Positions 1 to 22,448 of a stretch of 35,516 nucleotides of DNA are shown here, piece after piece. The position numbers and the translations under genes were made by a program. This stretch comes from Novosphingobium sp. (GTDB lineage: Bacteria > Pseudomonadota > Alphaproteobacteria > Sphingomonadales > Sphingomonadaceae), in the NCBI GenBank assembly GCA_020200285.1, contig JAIVIY010000008.1, positions 1-35,516 of the forward strand, in the 5' to 3' direction. Under the pieces are notes generated by a model, which was not told the DNA's origin, did not search any database, and was given only the letters and a program-made list of their open reading frames with translations. The number at the start of each line of letters is the position of its first letter. The first letter of the stretch is position 1.

Positions 1-4145
<4,145 letters not shown>

Positions 4146-6273: not shown

Positions 6274-8112
6274 TCAGCGCCCGAAGCGGATGCCCGCCCA
6301 CAGCGTCCGCGGCACGCCGAGATCGATCGAGCCGCCCTGGTTGCGAGTGACGATGCGCTCGTCGCTCAGGTTTTCGCCGCGCAGGACGAGCGCCAAGCCG
6401 CGCGCGACGGGAACCCGGGCGAACGCGTCGAGCGTGGTCGCCGCGGGCAGCGCGTCGCTCTCGAGATCGTCCTCGAACTGACGGCCGACGTGACGCAGCG
6501 TCGCCGCCAGCCGCCAGCGGTCCGCCGGCGCCCACGACAGCGTGCCGCTCGAGGCGATCTTCGGCGTCTGCGAGGGACGCTTGCCGTCGAGCGGGCTGCC
6601 GCGCTCCCGGACTTCGGCATCGGTCAGCGCCAGCGAGCCGTCGAAGCCCCATGCGCCCGTGCGCAGCGCCGCGCATCCGCGCAGCCGCTCGTTTCGGAGC
6701 GCGGCGTTGGCGCGGGTGGTGACCGGGAACACCACGAACGGGCGGTAGAGCTCGTTGAGCGTGGGCACGCGCAGCCCGCTGTAACCCGCGCCGCGCAACT
6801 GGACACCGCCGCCCAGCCGCGCCACCGCCCCGCCGCGCAAGCTCAGGTCCCAGCCCGCGCGGTCGGGAAACCGCGTGTCGGTGAGCGGCGTCCCGGCGGC
6901 GCTGGCCTCGCGGAACCGGCCGCGCCGAATCGTCCAGCGGTCGGCGCGGAGGCCGCCGGTCAGCACTACCGAGCCGAGCGTCCAGTCGTCCTGCGCGAAC
7001 AATCCGAGGTCGCCGTTCCTCCCGCCTGCGCGGCGCCGCGCGGTGACCAGCCCGGTGGCGGCGCTGAACGCCTCTTCCTGCAACTCTCCGGTCGCCAGAC
7101 GATAGTCGATGCCGAGCCGGACGACGTGGTCGGGTCCGAGCGGCGGACGCAGCTCGAGCTTGCCGCCGAGCCCCGTCGAGGGCGTGCGGCGCTGGTCGAG
7201 CGTCTTGCGGAAGCTGGTCGCGCTGATCACCACGTTGGAGAAATCGCGCGCCTGGACGTAAGCGAGCGCGTCGATCTGCCAGCGCCCGCGTCCGACCAGC
7301 CGCAAGCTCGCGTCTTGGCCGCTGCTGGTGCTATCCGCGCCCTCGAAGCGCAGTGTGCGATCGTCGTCATAGGCGAGCCCGCGCAGTTGCAGCTCGATCG
7401 TGTCGGTCAGCGGCGCTACCGCACGCAACTGGGTCGACCAGCTGTCGTAACGGGCGCGCGCGGTGGCCGCGACGCGTTGCGCTTCGGGCGTGGTGAAGAA
7501 CCCCTTCCCCCGGTCCCACCGCCCGCTGAGCACCGCGAAACCGCGGCCGAGCTCGGGCGCCAGCGTCGCCGAAGCCTCGGTCTCGCCGCGATCGTTGACC
7601 AGCAGCGCGCCGCTCGCCAGGCCGAGCTCGGCCGCCCCGGCGCTTTCGAGCTCGATCGTCCCCGCCACCGCGCCCGCGCCGAACGCGCCCGAGCCGCCGC
7701 CGCGCGTCACGCGAACCGAGGCGAGCCGCTCGGGCGGCAGCGCGCTCAACGGGATATAGCCGAAGAACGGGTCCGCCATCGGCACCCCGTCGAGCAGCAC
7801 GAGGCTGCGGCTGGTGGCGTTGCCGCCCAGCGCGCGCAGCGTCACCCCTTGCGCCGACGGGTTCGACGAGCGGCTGTCCGAGCGGCGGAACTGCTGGAAC
7901 CCGGCGACCGAGGCCAGCACGTCCTCGATCCGCCCCGAGGCCGAGCGCATCAGGTCCTCGCGATCGAGCACCGTGACGTCGTACGCCGGCGTCGCCGGCG
8001 TTTCCTCGAGGCCGCGGCCGGTGACGACGATCGGCCCCGCCGGCTCCTCGGCCGCGTTGGCGGAAGACGAAGCCGCGAGGAGGAGCACGGCGACGAAGCG
8101 AAGGCGAGGCAT
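6274..8112 (-). CDS. TonB-dependent outer membrane receptor (BtuB/siderophore-receptor-like)
   Basis: Signal peptide [20 protein letters not shown], TonB-box-like IVVTG, plug domain ([25 protein letters not shown]...[37 protein letters not shown]) and C-terminal beta-barrel ending in an aromatic-type IRFGR. Confidence 0.9.
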
Positions 8113-15089: not shown

Positions 15090-15440
15090 TCAGGCGGCGA
15101 AGCGCCGGTCGCGCAAGGCGTCGTCGAGCTGGTCGAGCGTGAACGGCTTGGCCAGCATCGGCGCCATCGGGATGTCGTCTCCGAGCGGCAGCGAGCGGTG
15201 GCCGGTCAGGTAGACGAACGGGATCGCCTCGCCGCGCAGCCGCGCGGCGACGGGCGCCGCGTTGGTTTCGTCGGCCAGGCTGAAATCGAGCAGCGCGAAG
15301 TCGACCTCGCCTTCGTCGAGCGTGGCGAAAGCCTGGTCCACCGTCGCCGCAGAACCCACAACTTCATGGCCGAGCTCGACCAGGCTCTCCTCCAGGAGCA
15401 TGGCGAGCAGCGGCTCGTCCTCGACAACCAGTACCTTCAT
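15090..15440 (-). CDS. Single-domain response regulator (receiver only)
   Basis: 116 aa MKVLVVEDEPLLAMLLEESLVELGHEVVGSAAT...FALLDFSLADE...FVYLTGHRS...LAKPFTLDQLDDAL. Confidence 0.92.
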   Translation of the reverse strand: MKVLVVEDEPLLAMLLEESLVELGHEVVGSAATVDQAFATLDEGEVDFALLDFSLADETNAAPVAARLRGEAIPFVYLTGHRSLPLGDDIPMAPMLAKPFTLDQLDDALRDRRFAA

Positions 15441-16348: not shown

Positions 16349-16561
16349 ACACAGCGCTGCGACGCTGAATTGCTGCATATGCGAACAATATTTTGCAATT
16401 GCGAACGAAATGACGTAATGAATGCCCATCACGCGCTTACTCGAAGGACAAATGCGGCGAACAGTGAGGCGAGCGCGCGCTGTTTATTGCACTGCAGCGA
16501 AACCGAATCGCCGATGCTGCGTTGTTAATGCAGCGTCCATCAATCGCCACCGGAACCAAGC

Positions 16562-18910
16562 ATGATTTTTGATTTGCCGCCGGACTCTGCCCGGGCCACG
16601 GCTGCTTCCGCAGATATCGTCACCCTTTCCTCGCGCCGTGCACAGGGTCAGCTCAAGTTGGCGCTGGTCGGTGGGTTTGCGCCGCGCAAGTGCGGGATTG
16701 CCACCTTCACCACCGACATTTTCGAACAGCTCCAGGCCCATCGTCCCCGCATCGCGACCGCCGTCTGGGCGGTCGAGGACCCGGCGGGACCGCGCGCCGA
16801 CCAGCGCGTGCACGGGCGGATCGCCAGCAACGACCCGGCCGCTTGGCGGGTCGCCGCGCGCGAAATCAACGAGGGCGGGTTCGACGCGATCTGGCTCCAG
16901 CACGAATATGGCATCTTCGGCGGCGACTGCGGTGAGATGGTGCTCGACTTTGCCGAGCGCCTCGCGGTGCCGCTGGTCGTGACCTGCCATACGGTGCTGG
17001 GCGAGCCGTCGGACAAGCAGCGCGCGATCCTCGACCGGTTGGTCTCGCTGGCGTCGCAGATCATGGTCATGTCGGCGCATGCGCGGGCGCTGCTGATCGA
17101 GTGTTACGGCGCGGATCCGGCGCGGGTGAGGTTCATCGCGCACGGCGCGCCGGATCGTCCCTTCGGCCGGCAGGAGGGGTTCAAGGCTTGCCTGGGCATC
17201 GCCGGGCGGCCGGTGCTGATGACCTTCGGCCTGCTCGGTCCCGGAAAGGGGATCGAGGCGACGATCGCCGCGCTCCCGGCGATCGTGTCGCGGCACCCCG
17301 ACGTTCTCTACAGGATCGTAGGCGCGACCCATCCCAACCTGGTCGCCGCTCACGGCGAAACCTATCGCGAGAGGCTGGGGGCGCTGGCAACCGAACTGGG
17401 CGTCGCCGACAACGTGGTCTTCGACAATCGCTTCCTCGAAACCGCCGATCTGCTCGACCAGCTCGAAGCTTGCGACGTCTACGTCACACCTTATCCCAAC
17501 CTCCAGCAATCGACCTCGGGCACGCTGAGCTATGCGGTTGCGTTGGGCAAGGCGGTCGTCTCGACGCCTTATGTGCATGCCAGGGAGCTTCTCGGCGAAG
17601 GCGCGGGCGTGCTGGTTGCGCCTGGCTCGGTCGACGCGCTGGCCGAGGCTGTGCTCGGGCTGCTCGACGACCCCGCCGCGCTCGCGGCGATGCAACGTGC
17701 CGCTTATGAGCGCGGCCGGATTACGACCTGGCCCCATTTCGCCGCCGCCGCCGCGACGCTGGTCGAGAAGGCGGTCGCCCGGCCCGTGTTGGCCGCTCCG
17801 CCACCGACCGCGACGCCGGGCATGACCGCGATCATGGCGCTGAGCGACGGCACCGGTATGCTCCAGCACGGGATCGGCATCATTCCCGACCGGCGCCACG
17901 GCTATTGCCTCGACGACAACGTCCGCGCGCTGCTGCTGATGCTGCGCGCCGATGCGATACCCGAAGCGGAGCGCGAGCGGCTCGCTTCGACATATGCGAG
18001 CTTCGTCCAGCACGCCTGGAACGAGGATGCCGGCGCATTTCGCAACTTCATGGCTTTCGACCGCAGCTGGTGCGAGGATGCCGGCTCGGCCGACAGCAAC
18101 GGCCGCACCGCGTGGGTGCTCGGCGAGGTGCTGGCCAGCGATCTTTCGCCGGCGTGGAAGACTTGGGCAGCGCCCTGGTTCAGCCGCGCGATCGCAGCGG
18201 TCGCCGATATCGAGCACCCGCGCGCGATGGCGTTCGCGATGCTCGGCGCGGCCGCGGCGTTGCGCAATGGCGTCGAGCACGACGAAGCGCGGGCCTTGCT
18301 CGAGCGCGGCGGGACGATGCTGCATACGCTGCTCGACGCCGTGCGGCGGCCCGACTGGGCGTGGTTCGAGGCGGTGCTCGCCTACGACAATCCGCGGCTG
18401 CCGCAAGCGCTGCTCGAAGCCGGGGTGGTTCTCGACCGCGCGGACTGGCGCGACGAGGCGCTCGACAGCCTCGCCTGGATAGCCGGGCAGCAATGCGCGC
18501 CCTCGGGCCATTTTCGCCCAATCGGTTCCGAAGGCTTCGGGCGTGAATACACCGCGCTGCCATTCGACCAGCAACCGCTCGAGGCCTGGGCGGCGATCGA
18601 AGCCGCAGCGAGCGCGTTCGCGGTCACACGCGAGGCTCGTTGGCTCGAGCATGCCGAAATCGCCCATCGCTGGTACTTCGGCGGCAATGACCGCGGAGTC
18701 GTGCTGGGCGACCTCGCCAGCGGGCGTTGCCGCGACGGAGTGACGCCGCAGGGCGCGAACGAGAATTGCGGAGCCGAATCGGTTCTGGCATTCCAGCTCG
18801 CCTGCTACGCGATGGCCGGGCTGGCGCGCGCGGCCGATCGCAGCGAGGCGGGGAATCGACTTGGACCTACTACGCGAGTTGCCGCAGACCCCGCTCCGTA
18901 TCCTCGATGA
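16562..18910 (+). CDS. GT4-family glycosyltransferase fused to a C-terminal alpha-helical (probably (alpha/alpha)6-type) domain
   Basis: 782 aa; LVGGFAPRKCGIATFTTDIFEQL, LQHEYGIFGG, TFGLLGPGKGIEATIAALP, YPNLQQSTSGTLSYAVALGKAVVSTPY; C-terminal half MALSDGTGMLQHGIGIIPDRRHGYCLDDNVRALLLMLRAD...NGRTAWVLGEVL. Confidence 0.9.
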   Translation: MIFDLPPDSARATAASADIVTLSSRRAQGQLKLALVGGFAPRKCGIATFTTDIFEQLQAHRPRIATAVWAVEDPAGPRADQRVHGRIASNDPAAWRVAAREINEGGFDAIWLQHEYGIFGGDCGEMVLDFAERLAVPLVVTCHTVLGEPSDKQRAILDRLVSLASQIMVMSAHARALLIECYGADPARVRFIAHGAPDRPFGRQEGFKACLGIAGRPVLMTFGLLGPGKGIEATIAALPAIVSRHPDVLYRIVGATHPNLVAAHGETYRERLGALATELGVADNVVFDNRFLETADLLDQLEACDVYVTPYPNLQQSTSGTLSYAVALGKAVVSTPYVHARELLGEGAGVLVAPGSVDALAEAVLGLLDDPAALAAMQRAAYERGRITTWPHFAAAAATLVEKAVARPVLAAPPPTATPGMTAIMALSDGTGMLQHGIGIIPDRRHGYCLDDNVRALLLMLRADAIPEAERERLASTYASFVQHAWNEDAGAFRNFMAFDRSWCEDAGSADSNGRTAWVLGEVLASDLSPAWKTWAAPWFSRAIAAVADIEHPRAMAFAMLGAAAALRNGVEHDEARALLERGGTMLHTLLDAVRRPDWAWFEAVLAYDNPRLPQALLEAGVVLDRADWRDEALDSLAWIAGQQCAPSGHFRPIGSEGFGREYTALPFDQQPLEAWAAIEAAASAFAVTREARWLEHAEIAHRWYFGGNDRGVVLGDLASGRCRDGVTPQGANENCGAESVLAFQLACYAMAGLARAADRSEAGNRLGPTTRVAADPAPYPR

Positions 18911-20183
18911 GCGGCTCCACGCCGATCCCTCGCGGGTCGTCATTCGCCCGTTCCACCTGGGGTGGCACACCGCCGCCGGAAACGCCCGCGCGAAGGTGCT
19001 GGTGGGTGACATCTGCGCGCTCGACGAGGCCGCAGTCGAGGAGGAGTACGCGCGGGTGCTCGCCGACTTTTCCGAGCGTCACTGGCAGACCGAGCAGGTC
19101 TTCGAGCAGCGCTACAAGGAACTGCGCGCGATGCTGTGGATCGACGACGCGGCGCTGTCGCCGACCCGGCGGCGGCTGATCGGCAGCTACTTCTGCCACG
19201 AATACACTTACGCCGCGGCCGCGCTGATGAACCCGAGCATCGTCCCCCACCCCGACCAGAGCGGCACCCAGGGCGGCGCGTGCCGGTTCGTGATGAGTTT
19301 GCGCGCGGTCGGCGAGGGCCACATCAGCTCGATCGCGTTCCGCGAGGGCATCGCCCACGCCGACGGCAGCTTCGCGCTGTGGCCGCAGACCGCGCACGCG
19401 ACCGCGGTCATGCTCGACGCCGGGGAGCAGCTCGACGAGAACGACAACCCGCTCGACGGGGTGGTCAACGTCCACCGCCACGACGAGGCGAACCTTTCCA
19501 ATACGGTGATCTTCCCGATCACCGAGCAGCAGCGCAACGGGCTCGAAGACCTGCGGCTGACCCATTTCGACCACGGCGACGGCCAGTACGAGTGGATCGG
19601 CACGTACACCGCCTATAGCGGCCATTCGATCCGCTCCGAGCTATTGCGGACCCGCGACTTCCGCCATTTCGAGCTCGAGCCGATCAAGGGGCACGCCGGC
19701 CGCAACAAGGGCATGGCGCTGTTCCCCGAAAAGATCGGCGGCGCTTACGTCATGGCCGGACGCCAGGACGGCAAGAACCTTTACGTGCTCCGTTCCGACC
19801 GCCTCGATCGCTGGGACGATGACGGCGTGGTGCTGATGGAGCCGAAATATCCGTGGGAATTCCTGCAGATCGGCAATTGCGGCAGCCCGATCCGGATCGA
19901 CGAAGGCTGGCTCTTGTTCACTCACGGCGTGGGCGCGATGCGCAAGTACGCGCTGGGCTGCGCGCTGCTCGACCTCGAGGACCCGTCGCAGGTGATCGGC
20001 CGGACCCCACGGCCCGTGCTGACCGCGGTGGACGCCGACCGCTCGGGCTATGTTCCCAACGTCGTTTACACTTGCGGGGTGCTGCGGGTCGGCGAGCGCC
20101 TGCTGGTTCCCTACGGCATCTCCGACAGCGCGGTGGGCTTCGCCACCGCGTCGATCGCCGACATCCTGGCACTGATGGAATGA
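18861..20183 (+). CDS. GH130 family glycosidase / mannoside phosphorylase-like protein
   Basis: 440 aa from TTG, overlapping the upstream GT; RFVMSLRAVGEGHISSIAFREG, WIGTYTAYSG, NKGMALFPEKIGGAYVMAGRQDG, ILALME C-terminus; five-bladed-propeller GH130-type motifs. Confidence 0.87.
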   Translation: MDLLRELPQTPLRILDERLHADPSRVVIRPFHLGWHTAAGNARAKVLVGDICALDEAAVEEEYARVLADFSERHWQTEQVFEQRYKELRAMLWIDDAALSPTRRRLIGSYFCHEYTYAAAALMNPSIVPHPDQSGTQGGACRFVMSLRAVGEGHISSIAFREGIAHADGSFALWPQTAHATAVMLDAGEQLDENDNPLDGVVNVHRHDEANLSNTVIFPITEQQRNGLEDLRLTHFDHGDGQYEWIGTYTAYSGHSIRSELLRTRDFRHFELEPIKGHAGRNKGMALFPEKIGGAYVMAGRQDGKNLYVLRSDRLDRWDDDGVVLMEPKYPWEFLQIGNCGSPIRIDEGWLLFTHGVGAMRKYALGCALLDLEDPSQVIGRTPRPVLTAVDADRSGYVPNVVYTCGVLRVGERLLVPYGISDSAVGFATASIADILALME

Positions 20184-20204
20184 TCGGGCGTTGAGCCTCC
20201 AGCG

Positions 20205-21239
20205 ATGAACCAGATCGTTCCCGTGATCCTGTGCGGCGGCAGCGGCACCCGCCTGTGGCCGCGCAGCCGGGCGAGCAAGCCCAAGCCGTTCCTGCCGCTG
20301 GTCGGTGAGCAGACGCTGTTCGAGGCGACGCTGTCGCGGTGCTCGGCCGGCGAGGATTTCGCGCCGCCGGTGGTGGTCGCGGGTCGCCAGCACCTCGACC
20401 TCGTCGAGCAGCAGCTCGGCGATCGGGCGGCGCAAGTCATCGTCGAGCCGATTGCGCGCAACACCGCCGCGGCGATCGCGCTCGCCGCGCTGCGCCTGCC
20501 CGAGGAGGCGGTGATGCTGGTCTGTCCGAGCGATCACCATATCGGCGATTGCGCGGCGTTCACGGTCGCGGCGCTGGCCGCGGCGGCGCTGGCGAGAGAC
20601 GGATGGCTGGTCGCGTTCGGCATCCTGGCGACCGCGCCCGAGACCGGGTTCGGCTATATCAAGCAGGGCGAGCCGTTGGGCGACGCCGGGTTCCGGGTCT
20701 CGCGCTTCGTCGAGAAGCCCGATGCCGCCACCGCGAAGCGCTTCCTCGACGAGGGTGGCTATCACTGGAACGGCGGGATTTTCGCGTTCGCGGCCAGGAC
20801 CTTCCTCGCTGAACTCGAAAAGCATCGCCCGAAGATCGCCGGCGCCGCGCGCGAGGCGGTCGCGGGCGGCCATGGCGAAGGGCGCCGCTTCCATCCCGGT
20901 TCCGACACCTTCGCCCGGATCGAGAGCGAATCGGTCGACTACGCGGTGATGGAGAACACCGACCTCGCAGCGATGGTCCACGCCGACATGGTGTGGTCCG
21001 ACATCGGCAACTGGCAGGCGCTCCACGCCGCGACCGCGCAGGACGCGTCCGGCAACGCGGTGCGCGGCCGCGCCGAGCTGGTCGATTGCCGCAACGTCCA
21101 CGTCTCGAGCGACGGGCCGCGGGTCTCGGTGATCGGGGTCAGCGACTTGATCGTGGTGGTCGACGGCGACGAGGTGCTGGTGACCAGCGCGGCGGGGGCG
21201 CAGCAGGTCGGCAAGCTCGAAGGAGCGGCGAACCAGTGA
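20205..21239 (+). CDS. manC: Mannose-1-phosphate guanylyltransferase
   Basis: 344 aa; ILCGGSGTRLWPRSRASKPKPFLPL, PIARNTAAAIALAAL, CPSDHHI, FVEKPDAATA, YHWNGGIFAF, WSDIGNWQAL. Confidence 0.95.
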   Translation: MNQIVPVILCGGSGTRLWPRSRASKPKPFLPLVGEQTLFEATLSRCSAGEDFAPPVVVAGRQHLDLVEQQLGDRAAQVIVEPIARNTAAAIALAALRLPEEAVMLVCPSDHHIGDCAAFTVAALAAAALARDGWLVAFGILATAPETGFGYIKQGEPLGDAGFRVSRFVEKPDAATAKRFLDEGGYHWNGGIFAFAARTFLAELEKHRPKIAGAAREAVAGGHGEGRRFHPGSDTFARIESESVDYAVMENTDLAAMVHADMVWSDIGNWQALHAATAQDASGNAVRGRAELVDCRNVHVSSDGPRVSVIGVSDLIVVVDGDEVLVTSAAGAQQVGKLEGAANQ

Positions 21240-22039
21240 GCGCGCTGCCGATCCGCCAGGTCGCCAAGCCGTGGGGCCGCGAGCAGCTCCCCGCGCCGTT
21301 CGTGGCGCCGCCGGGCGAGAAGATCGGCGAGATCTGGTTCGAGCCGCCGCCCGAGCTGCCGAGCCTGCTGGTCAAGTACATCTTCACCAGCGAGAAGCTC
21401 TCGGTCCAGGTCCACCCCGACGACGGCCAGGCCCGCGCGGCCGGGCAAGGCGCGAACGGCAAGGAGGAATGCTGGCTGGTGATCGACGCCGAGCCCGGGG
21501 CGGCTCTCGGCGTCGGCTTCCGCGAGCCGATTTCCGCCGAGGCGATGCGTGCCGCGGCGCTCGACGGGTCGATCGAGGACATGCTGGTGTGGCATCCGGT
21601 GCGCGCCGGCGATTTCCTCTACATCCCGGCCAATACGGTCCACGCGATCGGCTCGGGGGTCAGCCTGATCGAGGTCCAGCAGAACGCCGACCTCACCTAC
21701 CGCCTCTACGACTACGGCCGCCCGCGCGAGCTGCACCTGGATCAAGGCATCGCCGTGGCCAAAGGGGAGCCGCACGATGCGCACCTCCGCCGCCATGTGC
21801 CCGAGCGCGGCACGCTCGAGCTCGCCGACGGCCGCTATTTCCGGCTTCACCGGGTCGACGGCGAGCCGGACGCGGCGATGCGCGCCGCCTACGACCGGCC
21901 GATGCTGGTGATTCCGCGCCAGGGCGCGGTCAGGATCGGCGGCGAAACCCTGCGCCCGGGCTCGTGTGGCTACGCCGCGACGATCTCGGACGTTTCCTTT
22001 GCTCCGGATGGCCAAGCGCTGATCACCCACCCGCGCTGA
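21236..22039 (+). CDS. manA: Class I mannose-6-phosphate isomerase
   Basis: 267 aa from GTG overlapping the manC stop (GTGA); KPWGREQLPAPF, GEIWFE, LLVKYIFTSEKLSVQVHPDD, GKEECWLVIDAEPGA, YIPANTVHAIG, IEVQQNADLTYRLYDYGR. Confidence 0.95.
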   Translation: MSALPIRQVAKPWGREQLPAPFVAPPGEKIGEIWFEPPPELPSLLVKYIFTSEKLSVQVHPDDGQARAAGQGANGKEECWLVIDAEPGAALGVGFREPISAEAMRAAALDGSIEDMLVWHPVRAGDFLYIPANTVHAIGSGVSLIEVQQNADLTYRLYDYGRPRELHLDQGIAVAKGEPHDAHLRRHVPERGTLELADGRYFRLHRVDGEPDAAMRAAYDRPMLVIPRQGAVRIGGETLRPGSCGYAATISDVSFAPDGQALITHPR

Positions 22040-22049
22040 GCGCGCGCCG

Positions 22050-22448
22050 CTAGCCGGCGGCGGACAAGCGCAGCACGCTCACCAGGTCATTCCTCGAATA
22101 GGGCTTAAACAGCACCGCGATCTTGTTCGCGTACCGCCCCGCGAGCGCATCGACCTCACCGTATCCGGTGGCGAAGGCGAAGCGGATCCCGCGTTCGTCG
22201 AGCGCGCGTGCGACCGGCTCGCTGGTTTCGTTTCCAAGGTTGAAATCGAGCAGCGCGAAATGATGATTCTCGCGCTCGAGCGCGGCCAACGCCGCGGCGT
22301 TGCTGGCGGCGACGTCGACGCGCTCGACCCCGAGGTCGAGCAACTGCTCCTCGGTATCGAGCGCGATGATCGTGTTGTCTTCGACCACCAGCACGCTCGC
22401 CGGCAGGGGTAGCTCGAGTTCGATGAACGATCGCGATCGGCGAACCAC
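22050..22448 (-). CDS. Receiver-domain protein; probable stand-alone remnant of a larger HWE-type hybrid kinase
   Basis: FIELELPLPASVLVVEDNTIIALDTEEQLLDLGVERVDVAASNAAALAALERENHHFALLDFNLGNETSEPVARALDERGIRFAFATGYGEVDALAG...LFKPYSRNDLVSVL; only a weak GTG start (22448), 11 nt after the heme oxygenase stop. Confidence 0.75.
   Translation of the reverse strand: MVRRSRSFIELELPLPASVLVVEDNTIIALDTEEQLLDLGVERVDVAASNAAALAALERENHHFALLDFNLGNETSEPVARALDERGIRFAFATGYGEVDALAGRYANKIAVLFKPYSRNDLVSVLRLSAAG

Follow-up and report, generated by a model that had tools for sequence, protein, structure and literature searches.

A conserved glycosyltransferase-helical domain fusion and its long-form GH130 partner in Novosphingobium and relatives: a predicted cytoplasmic mannoside unit

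The window, meaning here the whole stretch of 35,516 nucleotides of Novosphingobium sp. that was analysed (contig JAIVIY010000008.1), contains four genes on the forward strand between positions 16562 and 22039. These were identified by open reading frame and family searches as a glycosyltransferase of family 4 (GT4) fused to an alpha-helical domain (called HEL, the fusion being GT4-HEL), a protein of glycoside hydrolase family 130 (GH130), manC and manA, which confirms the four co-directional and overlapping or tightly spaced genes described in an earlier note on this sequence. GT4-HEL (16562-18910, 782 aa, from the open reading frame and Pfam) overlaps the GH130 gene (18861-20183, 440 aa) by 50 nt if the latter starts at the TTG codon at 18861, or by 32 nt if it starts at the TTG codon at 18879. 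The gap between GH130 and manC (20205-21239) is 21 nt, and manC overlaps manA (21236-22039) by 4 nt. GT4-HEL and GH130, the subject of this work, are taken as probably cytoplasmic, since inspection by eye showed no signal peptide in either protein.

Conservation of these genes was followed in two sets of loci: a GH130-first set of 80 loci, obtained by scanning genome contigs from GH130, and a HEL-first set of 69 loci, mostly from Sphingomonadaceae, chosen by HEL alone. In the GH130-first set, GT4 and HEL form a single open reading frame in 78 of 80 loci (they are separate in one, L082, and one contig breaks off), and GT4-HEL is co-directional with GH130 in 76/80. Starting from HEL, GT4 was found fused or abutting in 67/69 loci, and GH130 directly downstream in 65/69 and nearby in another arrangement in 3 more. 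Where GT4 and HEL are split (L082 and L169), HEL still immediately precedes GH130, and GT4 is nearby and divergent. The pairing is thus seen from both the GH130 and the HEL starts and is kept when GT4 and HEL are separated, so that the conserved unit is a trio made of GT4, HEL and a GH130 with an N-terminal extension of about 110 aa (the long form). The closest relatives of the GH130 protein are from Altererythrobacter, Tsuneonella and Novosphingobium, with 70-73% identity.

Among good-quality Sphingomonadaceae genomes HEL is present in 64/160 (about 40%), and in an even draw across Alphaproteobacteria it was found in 7/233 good genomes. All six genomes of this draw with a full HEL also encode the long GH130 (6/6); in four of them it adjoins HEL, and in the other two it lies upstream of GT4-HEL. 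One true exception to the pairing is a second long GH130 without HEL within 11 kb (genome G093); another long GH130 without HEL, in genome G608, is uninformative because its contig ends inside the neighbouring GT4. The sole locus of the HEL-first set without GH130 (L170) is also without GT4, and its HEL is missing several conserved residues. This stand-alone HEL gene (6875-8062) lies beside manA with neither GT4 nor GH130 nearby, and appears to be a decaying remnant of the module. The suggestion that the GT4-helical protein and GH130 form an undescribed pair was borne out in that the pair is very strongly conserved, and in the literature searched (partial coverage) neither the GT4-HEL protein nor its near-constant tie to a long GH130 was found described.

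The unit also occurs outside Alphaproteobacteria and on plasmids. A conjugative plasmid of Ilyobacter polytropus (Fusobacteriota) carries the row GT4, short GH130, long GH130 and GT4-HEL, and its long GH130 is 37% identical to that of the window over the full length. On a Deinococcus plasmid, GT4-HEL is accompanied by another GT4 and a short GH130, and plasmids of Sphingobium and Sphingomonas also encode the pair. On the Ilyobacter plasmid (pILYOP02, locus L083, 5551-11277) this four-gene mannoside cassette adjoins genes for an IS256 transposase and recombinases, and the module looks mobile. One further locus (L172, genome G700) encodes a short GH130 on the other strand in addition to the trio, which hints that a cassette of the Ilyobacter type is also present in Alphaproteobacteria.

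The long-form GH130 protein matches PF04041 over residues 213-439 (98.5 bits; cut-off 26). Its AlphaFold2 model (predicted local distance difference test, pLDDT, 91.6) has the beta-propeller fold of family GH130, with the first ~110 residues mainly helical and lying outside the propeller. The best Foldseek match of this model was 9fj8 (E = 8.4e-22, TMt 0.77), the PDB sequence matches were 7fip, 9fj8 and 5b0p, and its best modelling match is Teth514_1788, a 1,2-beta-oligomannan phosphorylase, the nearest GH130 structures being beta-1,2-mannobiose and 1,2-beta-oligomannan phosphorylases. Membership in GT108, the Leishmania family, was rejected (6q50, E = 3.3e-7, and 6q4x, E = 2.5e-6, vs 1e-21 for GH130 structures).

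GH130 enzymes act on beta-mannosides with inversion (PMC4264767, PMC4599007); the candidate acid is an Asp that does not vary, specificity for beta-1,2 bonds is marked by a Lys (Lys199 in BT3780), and hydrolases of the family are without the basic phosphate residues (PMC4599007). Across 61 GH130 relatives of the window protein, residues E229-D230, K283, R301 and H355 do not vary. E229-D230 aligns with GVED of 7fip, which holds the catalytic Asp (GxED motif), and K283 aligns with the Lys of the NK motif of Teth514_1788, Lin0857 and Uhgb_MS, BT3780 Lys199 not being in the alignment; this motif holds an Arg in TM1225 and in the short GH130 of Ilyobacter. For the phosphate site, R301 and H355 align with the Arg and His of phosphorylases, in an alignment that did not place a third basic residue and included no hydrolase. 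That K283 is the beta-1,2 Lys and R301 and H355 are phosphate ligands is suggested by these alignments and is not proved. Retention of the catalytic Asp, of the beta-1,2-associated Lys and of Arg and His at the phosphate positions makes phosphorolysis to mannose 1-phosphate (Man-1-P) likely, and the protein is predicted to be a beta-1,2-mannoside phosphorylase. The view of the earlier note, that GH130 could be a phosphorylase yielding the substrate of ManC, thus looks right from the structures matched and the residues retained. A second GH130, of another subfamily, was seen in the home genome (contig C173, locus L002, 316-2544), in a 742-aa frame that seemingly runs into a Rieske-type protein and is probably a frameshift or an assembly joint.

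The GT4 domain (16562-17776) has a GT-B fold and was delimited by Pfam (PF13692, PF00534 and PF13439), the AlphaFold2 model (pLDDT 90.7), Foldseek and alignment to MshA and PimA. Its Pfam matches lie within residues 45-384 (PF13692, 63.6 bits vs 27; PF13439, 37.1 vs 28.5), and GT4-HEL has no Pfam match beyond residue 384. MshA, PimB' and PimA are its relatives by fold and sequence (Foldseek and alignment). The donor site is non-canonical: in the alignment with MshA and PimA, Leu224 replaces the Arg that binds the donor phosphate, Gln316 and Tyr324 replace the glutamates of the E-x7-E motif, and Lys229 is kept. These replacements are fixed or nearly so in relatives, including those of Ilyobacter and Deinococcus. 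GT4 is a retaining family, and transfer from GDP-alpha-mannose would give an alpha-mannoside; GH130 acts on beta-mannosides, and the two enzymes therefore cannot handle the same bond, the chief weakness of the loop suggested in the earlier note.

The remainder of the fusion (17777-18910) comprises a linker and HEL, whose core (about 17825-18860) was recognised from the helix pattern of the AlphaFold2 model and a match to 7tem. HEL is about 360 aa long and is modelled as a toroid-like arrangement of about six helix pairs. No Pfam family was matched in 17 members, and no match was found in NCBIfam or PHROGs. Among the matches listed, its only solved relative is 7tem, Yersinia pestis YPO2471 (E = 1.1e-14 by profile, 1.2e-12 by fold), and the 50 best Foldseek matches listed for the whole GT4-HEL model are glycosyltransferase folds and 7tem only. 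The fold match of YPO2471 to HEL covers about 400 columns, with a template modelling score of 0.70-0.72 by target length, but YPO2471 has no glycosyltransferase fusion and is annotated as a 'putative exported protein'; no paper on 7tem/YPO2471 was found. Conserved polar residues of HEL are H446, D451, D452, R501, W503, D511, R554, W601, E603, N610, D669-Q671, N709, D725, N733, N735 and E739. They seem to lie mostly in loops and at helix starts, as in toroid glycosidases. We take HEL as a putative enzyme.

The manC product is a mannose-1-phosphate guanylyltransferase without the C-terminal isomerase part (PF00483, the NTP_transferase match, and PF22640); it scores 332 bits over positions 1-341 of the 467 of TIGR01479, below the 373-bit cut-off set for the bifunctional enzyme. 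The manA product (267 aa) is a class I mannose-6-phosphate isomerase, matched by TIGR00218 with E = 2.7e-16, under that model's own cut-off. Its start is the GTG codon at 21236; a separate start at 20993, where the open reading frame begins, was rejected because this position falls inside manC. Within 4 kb of HEL in the HEL-first set, manA was found in 14/69 loci, manC in 6/69, either in 15/69 and both in 5/69, and Bradyrhizobium-type and Sinorhizobium loci have manA upstream of the pair. The trio is thus the core, and manC and manA are optional; their repeated gain on either side supports a connection with mannose. The order GT4-HEL/GH130 is kept in most relatives, and the four-gene operon with manC and manA, whose conservation the earlier note had put up for checking, is restricted to a minority.

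In the home genome assembly (2.09 Mb, 68% complete), one manC and one manA were found, and as the single copies seen they may also serve the general supply of GDP-mannose. No phosphomannomutase-like gene was found in the window; a fragment of a PgmG-type phosphoglucomutase/phosphomannomutase lies at the edge of another contig, so that mannose 6-phosphate can be converted to Man-1-P by the usual route and a bypass is needless. The idea of mutase-free recycling was dropped for this reason.

A tonB gene lies just upstream of the operon. Genes for single-domain response regulators (PRK13435/PhyR-like; 15090-15431 and 22053-22430, - strand) flank the operon together with this tonB. At the edge of the window (3-4145, - strand), and leaving it, is a gene for a histidine kinase with about nine serial HAMP domains followed by GAF and HisKA, an unusually long HAMP array.

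Upstream regions were searched for the EcfG motif of Sphingomonas melonis, GGAAC-N17-20-GTT (PMC6599016). In the GH130-first set this motif is present at most 180 bp upstream of GT4-HEL in 14/76 loci against 0.66 expected (random windows of the same loci, 1000 draws; mean 0.66, maximum 4), and in the HEL-first set in 10/65 loci against 0.67 expected (nine at 36-74 bp upstream, one at 14 bp); the relatives are not independent and both sets share species, so that these ratios overstate the actual support. At least in some Alphaproteobacteria, EcfG, the general stress sigma factor, seems to activate the pair. In four loci (L015, L067, L073 and L076) an EcfG-type motif is found again 15-20 bp after GH130, perhaps as the promoter of a further stress gene.

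Given this gene anatomy, conservation, set of predicted folds and retained catalytic positions, and the promoter enrichment, we propose that GT4-HEL and the long GH130 are one cytoplasmic, stress-linked unit for making and mobilising an oligosaccharide that contains mannose, a reading whose chances of being right or wrong we consider evenly balanced. From these observations we infer the direction of the reactions, a division of labour between alpha and beta linkages and a role in stress, as follows. GH130 would work in both directions on mannose in beta linkage, probably beta-1,2: it would pass this sugar from the oligosaccharide to phosphate, which releases alpha-Man-1-P, or return it from alpha-Man-1-P to the oligosaccharide. 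GT4, a retaining enzyme whose donor site is unusual, would contribute an alpha-linked section of that molecule, be it primer, core or cap, and HEL would process the molecule by trimming or rearranging it in a pocket that conserved carboxylates line. The mutase encoded elsewhere in the genome, together with ManC and ManA, would connect Man-1-P to GDP-mannose and fructose-6-phosphate, and EcfG would induce the unit in part of Alphaproteobacteria. A mixed alpha/beta product of the kind proposed here is that of the mannoside synthase Uhgb_MS, which adds beta-1,2-mannose onto alpha-1,2-mannobiose (PMC8950772). Uhgb_MS and the beta-1,2-mannobiose phosphorylase Lin0857 of Listeria, both GH130 enzymes, share the propeller and the aligned catalytic positions with the window protein, but they are only 22-23% identical to it and are not known as partners of GT4-HEL.

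Several points weigh against this proposal. To our knowledge, no activity has been described for any member. The GT4 donor site appears so altered that GDP-mannose cannot be assumed as the donor. GH130 scores 145.9 bits with NCBIfam NF052550 (characterised beta-1,2-mannobiose phosphorylases) against a cut-off of 450 bits, and scores so far under the NCBIfam cut-offs indicate membership of the family without a curated specificity class. As for regulation, a reverse-strand control of the EcfG motif in the HEL-first set gave 4/65, most relatives are without an exact site, and the window holds only a weak candidate with one mismatch (GAAAC-N17-GTT, 16499-16523, + strand, 63 bp before the GT4-HEL start). 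The EcfG study of S. melonis lists an adjacent 'Glycosyltransferase' and 'Glycosidases' as regulon members (PMC6599016). That these genes, #1750/#1751 of strain Fr1, are the pair could not be shown and is not claimed: a search for the promoter sequence published for them gave no match in the collected loci, in 401 family genomes, in 3 genomes with Sphingomonas loci or, for one of these, in 201 genomes of its genus, and no EcfG motif was found in the intergenic stretch at the place expected for them. The 'Glycosidases' of Fr1 may be an amylase-type gene.

Four other explanations were weighed. GH130 could itself be both polymerase and depolymerase of a beta-1,2-linked, mannogen-like reserve, with GT4-HEL only priming or capping, comparable to the dual-activity transferase-phosphorylases of Leishmania. 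GH130 phosphorolysis is reversible (PMC4264767), stress-type promoters are enriched in the relatives, and the GT108 enzymes of the Leishmania mannogen cycle have the same five-bladed propeller and interconvert Man-1-P and beta-1,2-mannan, in line with the idea of a cytosolic reserve (PMC8950772). Their fold match to the window GH130 is weak (E of about 1e-6 to 1e-7), however, and far behind that of GH130 structures (1e-7 vs 1e-21); cellular phosphate usually drives phosphorolysis, and no polymer is known in bacteria carrying the pair, so that we hold this explanation to be unlikely. The Leishmania cycle, as far as we know, has no GT4 or helical partner.

Salvage alone, in which imported beta-mannosides would be turned by GH130 into Man-1-P for ManC and GT4-HEL would spend GDP-mannose on an envelope glycan, is modelled on the cluster Teth514_1786-1796 of Thermoanaerobacter, where a beta-1,2-type GH130 also lies beside a mannose-1-phosphate guanylyltransferase and a GT4. 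The feeding of GDP-mannose by phosphorylase-derived Man-1-P was already proposed for that cluster (PMC4264767), and recycling of Man-1-P through a phosphorylase to ManC is therefore not new. The Thermoanaerobacter cluster differs in having an ABC importer, a GH5 and two short GH130 and, in the published gene list, no GT4-HEL, and the window GH130 has the ~110-aa N-terminal extension and only ~26% identity to its GH130. The tonB gene just upstream in the window and in a few relatives speaks for salvage, but the genes examined included none recognisable as a sugar importer or a secreted mannanase, nor was an oligomannan ABC importer recognised among the classified neighbour genes of the window or relatives, not every neighbouring open reading frame having been searched. 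With frequent classifiable neighbours that are unrelated in Sphingomonas loci (QueF, rhodanese and an OPT transporter) and a trio whose members keep together far more strictly than they do with ManC, we consider salvage alone quite unlikely.

It is improbable, too, that HEL and GT4 are non-catalytic, for instance a sugar-binding scaffold or a sensor controlling GH130: the degenerate donor residues of GT4 are themselves fixed, as this would have it, but dozens of polar residues are invariant in GT4 and HEL across three phyla. The closed loop of the earlier note, with GT4 building the very mannoside that GH130 reclaims and mannose recycled without a mutase, agrees with gene content and order in the window and with the use of the GH130 product by ManC, but is very improbable with a retaining (alpha) GT4 of altered donor site facing a beta-specific GH130, a PgmG fragment in the genome and manC absent beside most copies.

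For the preferred reading of GT4-HEL and the long GH130 as one unit, we offer a bolder extension only tentatively and regard it as doubtful: HEL would found an undescribed family of toroid carbohydrate enzymes and, with the unusual GT4 and the long GH130, would build and mobilise a bacterial equivalent of mannogen, induced by stress and serving as a mannose reserve or protectant with mixed alpha and beta linkages. HEL is found in about 40% of sampled Sphingomonadaceae, nearly always with the pair, and close relatives are carried by conjugative plasmids; the pair is small, can be cloned and could be tested in standard laboratory strains. If the proposal is true, a cytoplasmic mannoside made and recovered under stress would add a new reserve or protectant to those known in bacteria, one that invites comparison with the mannogen of Leishmania.

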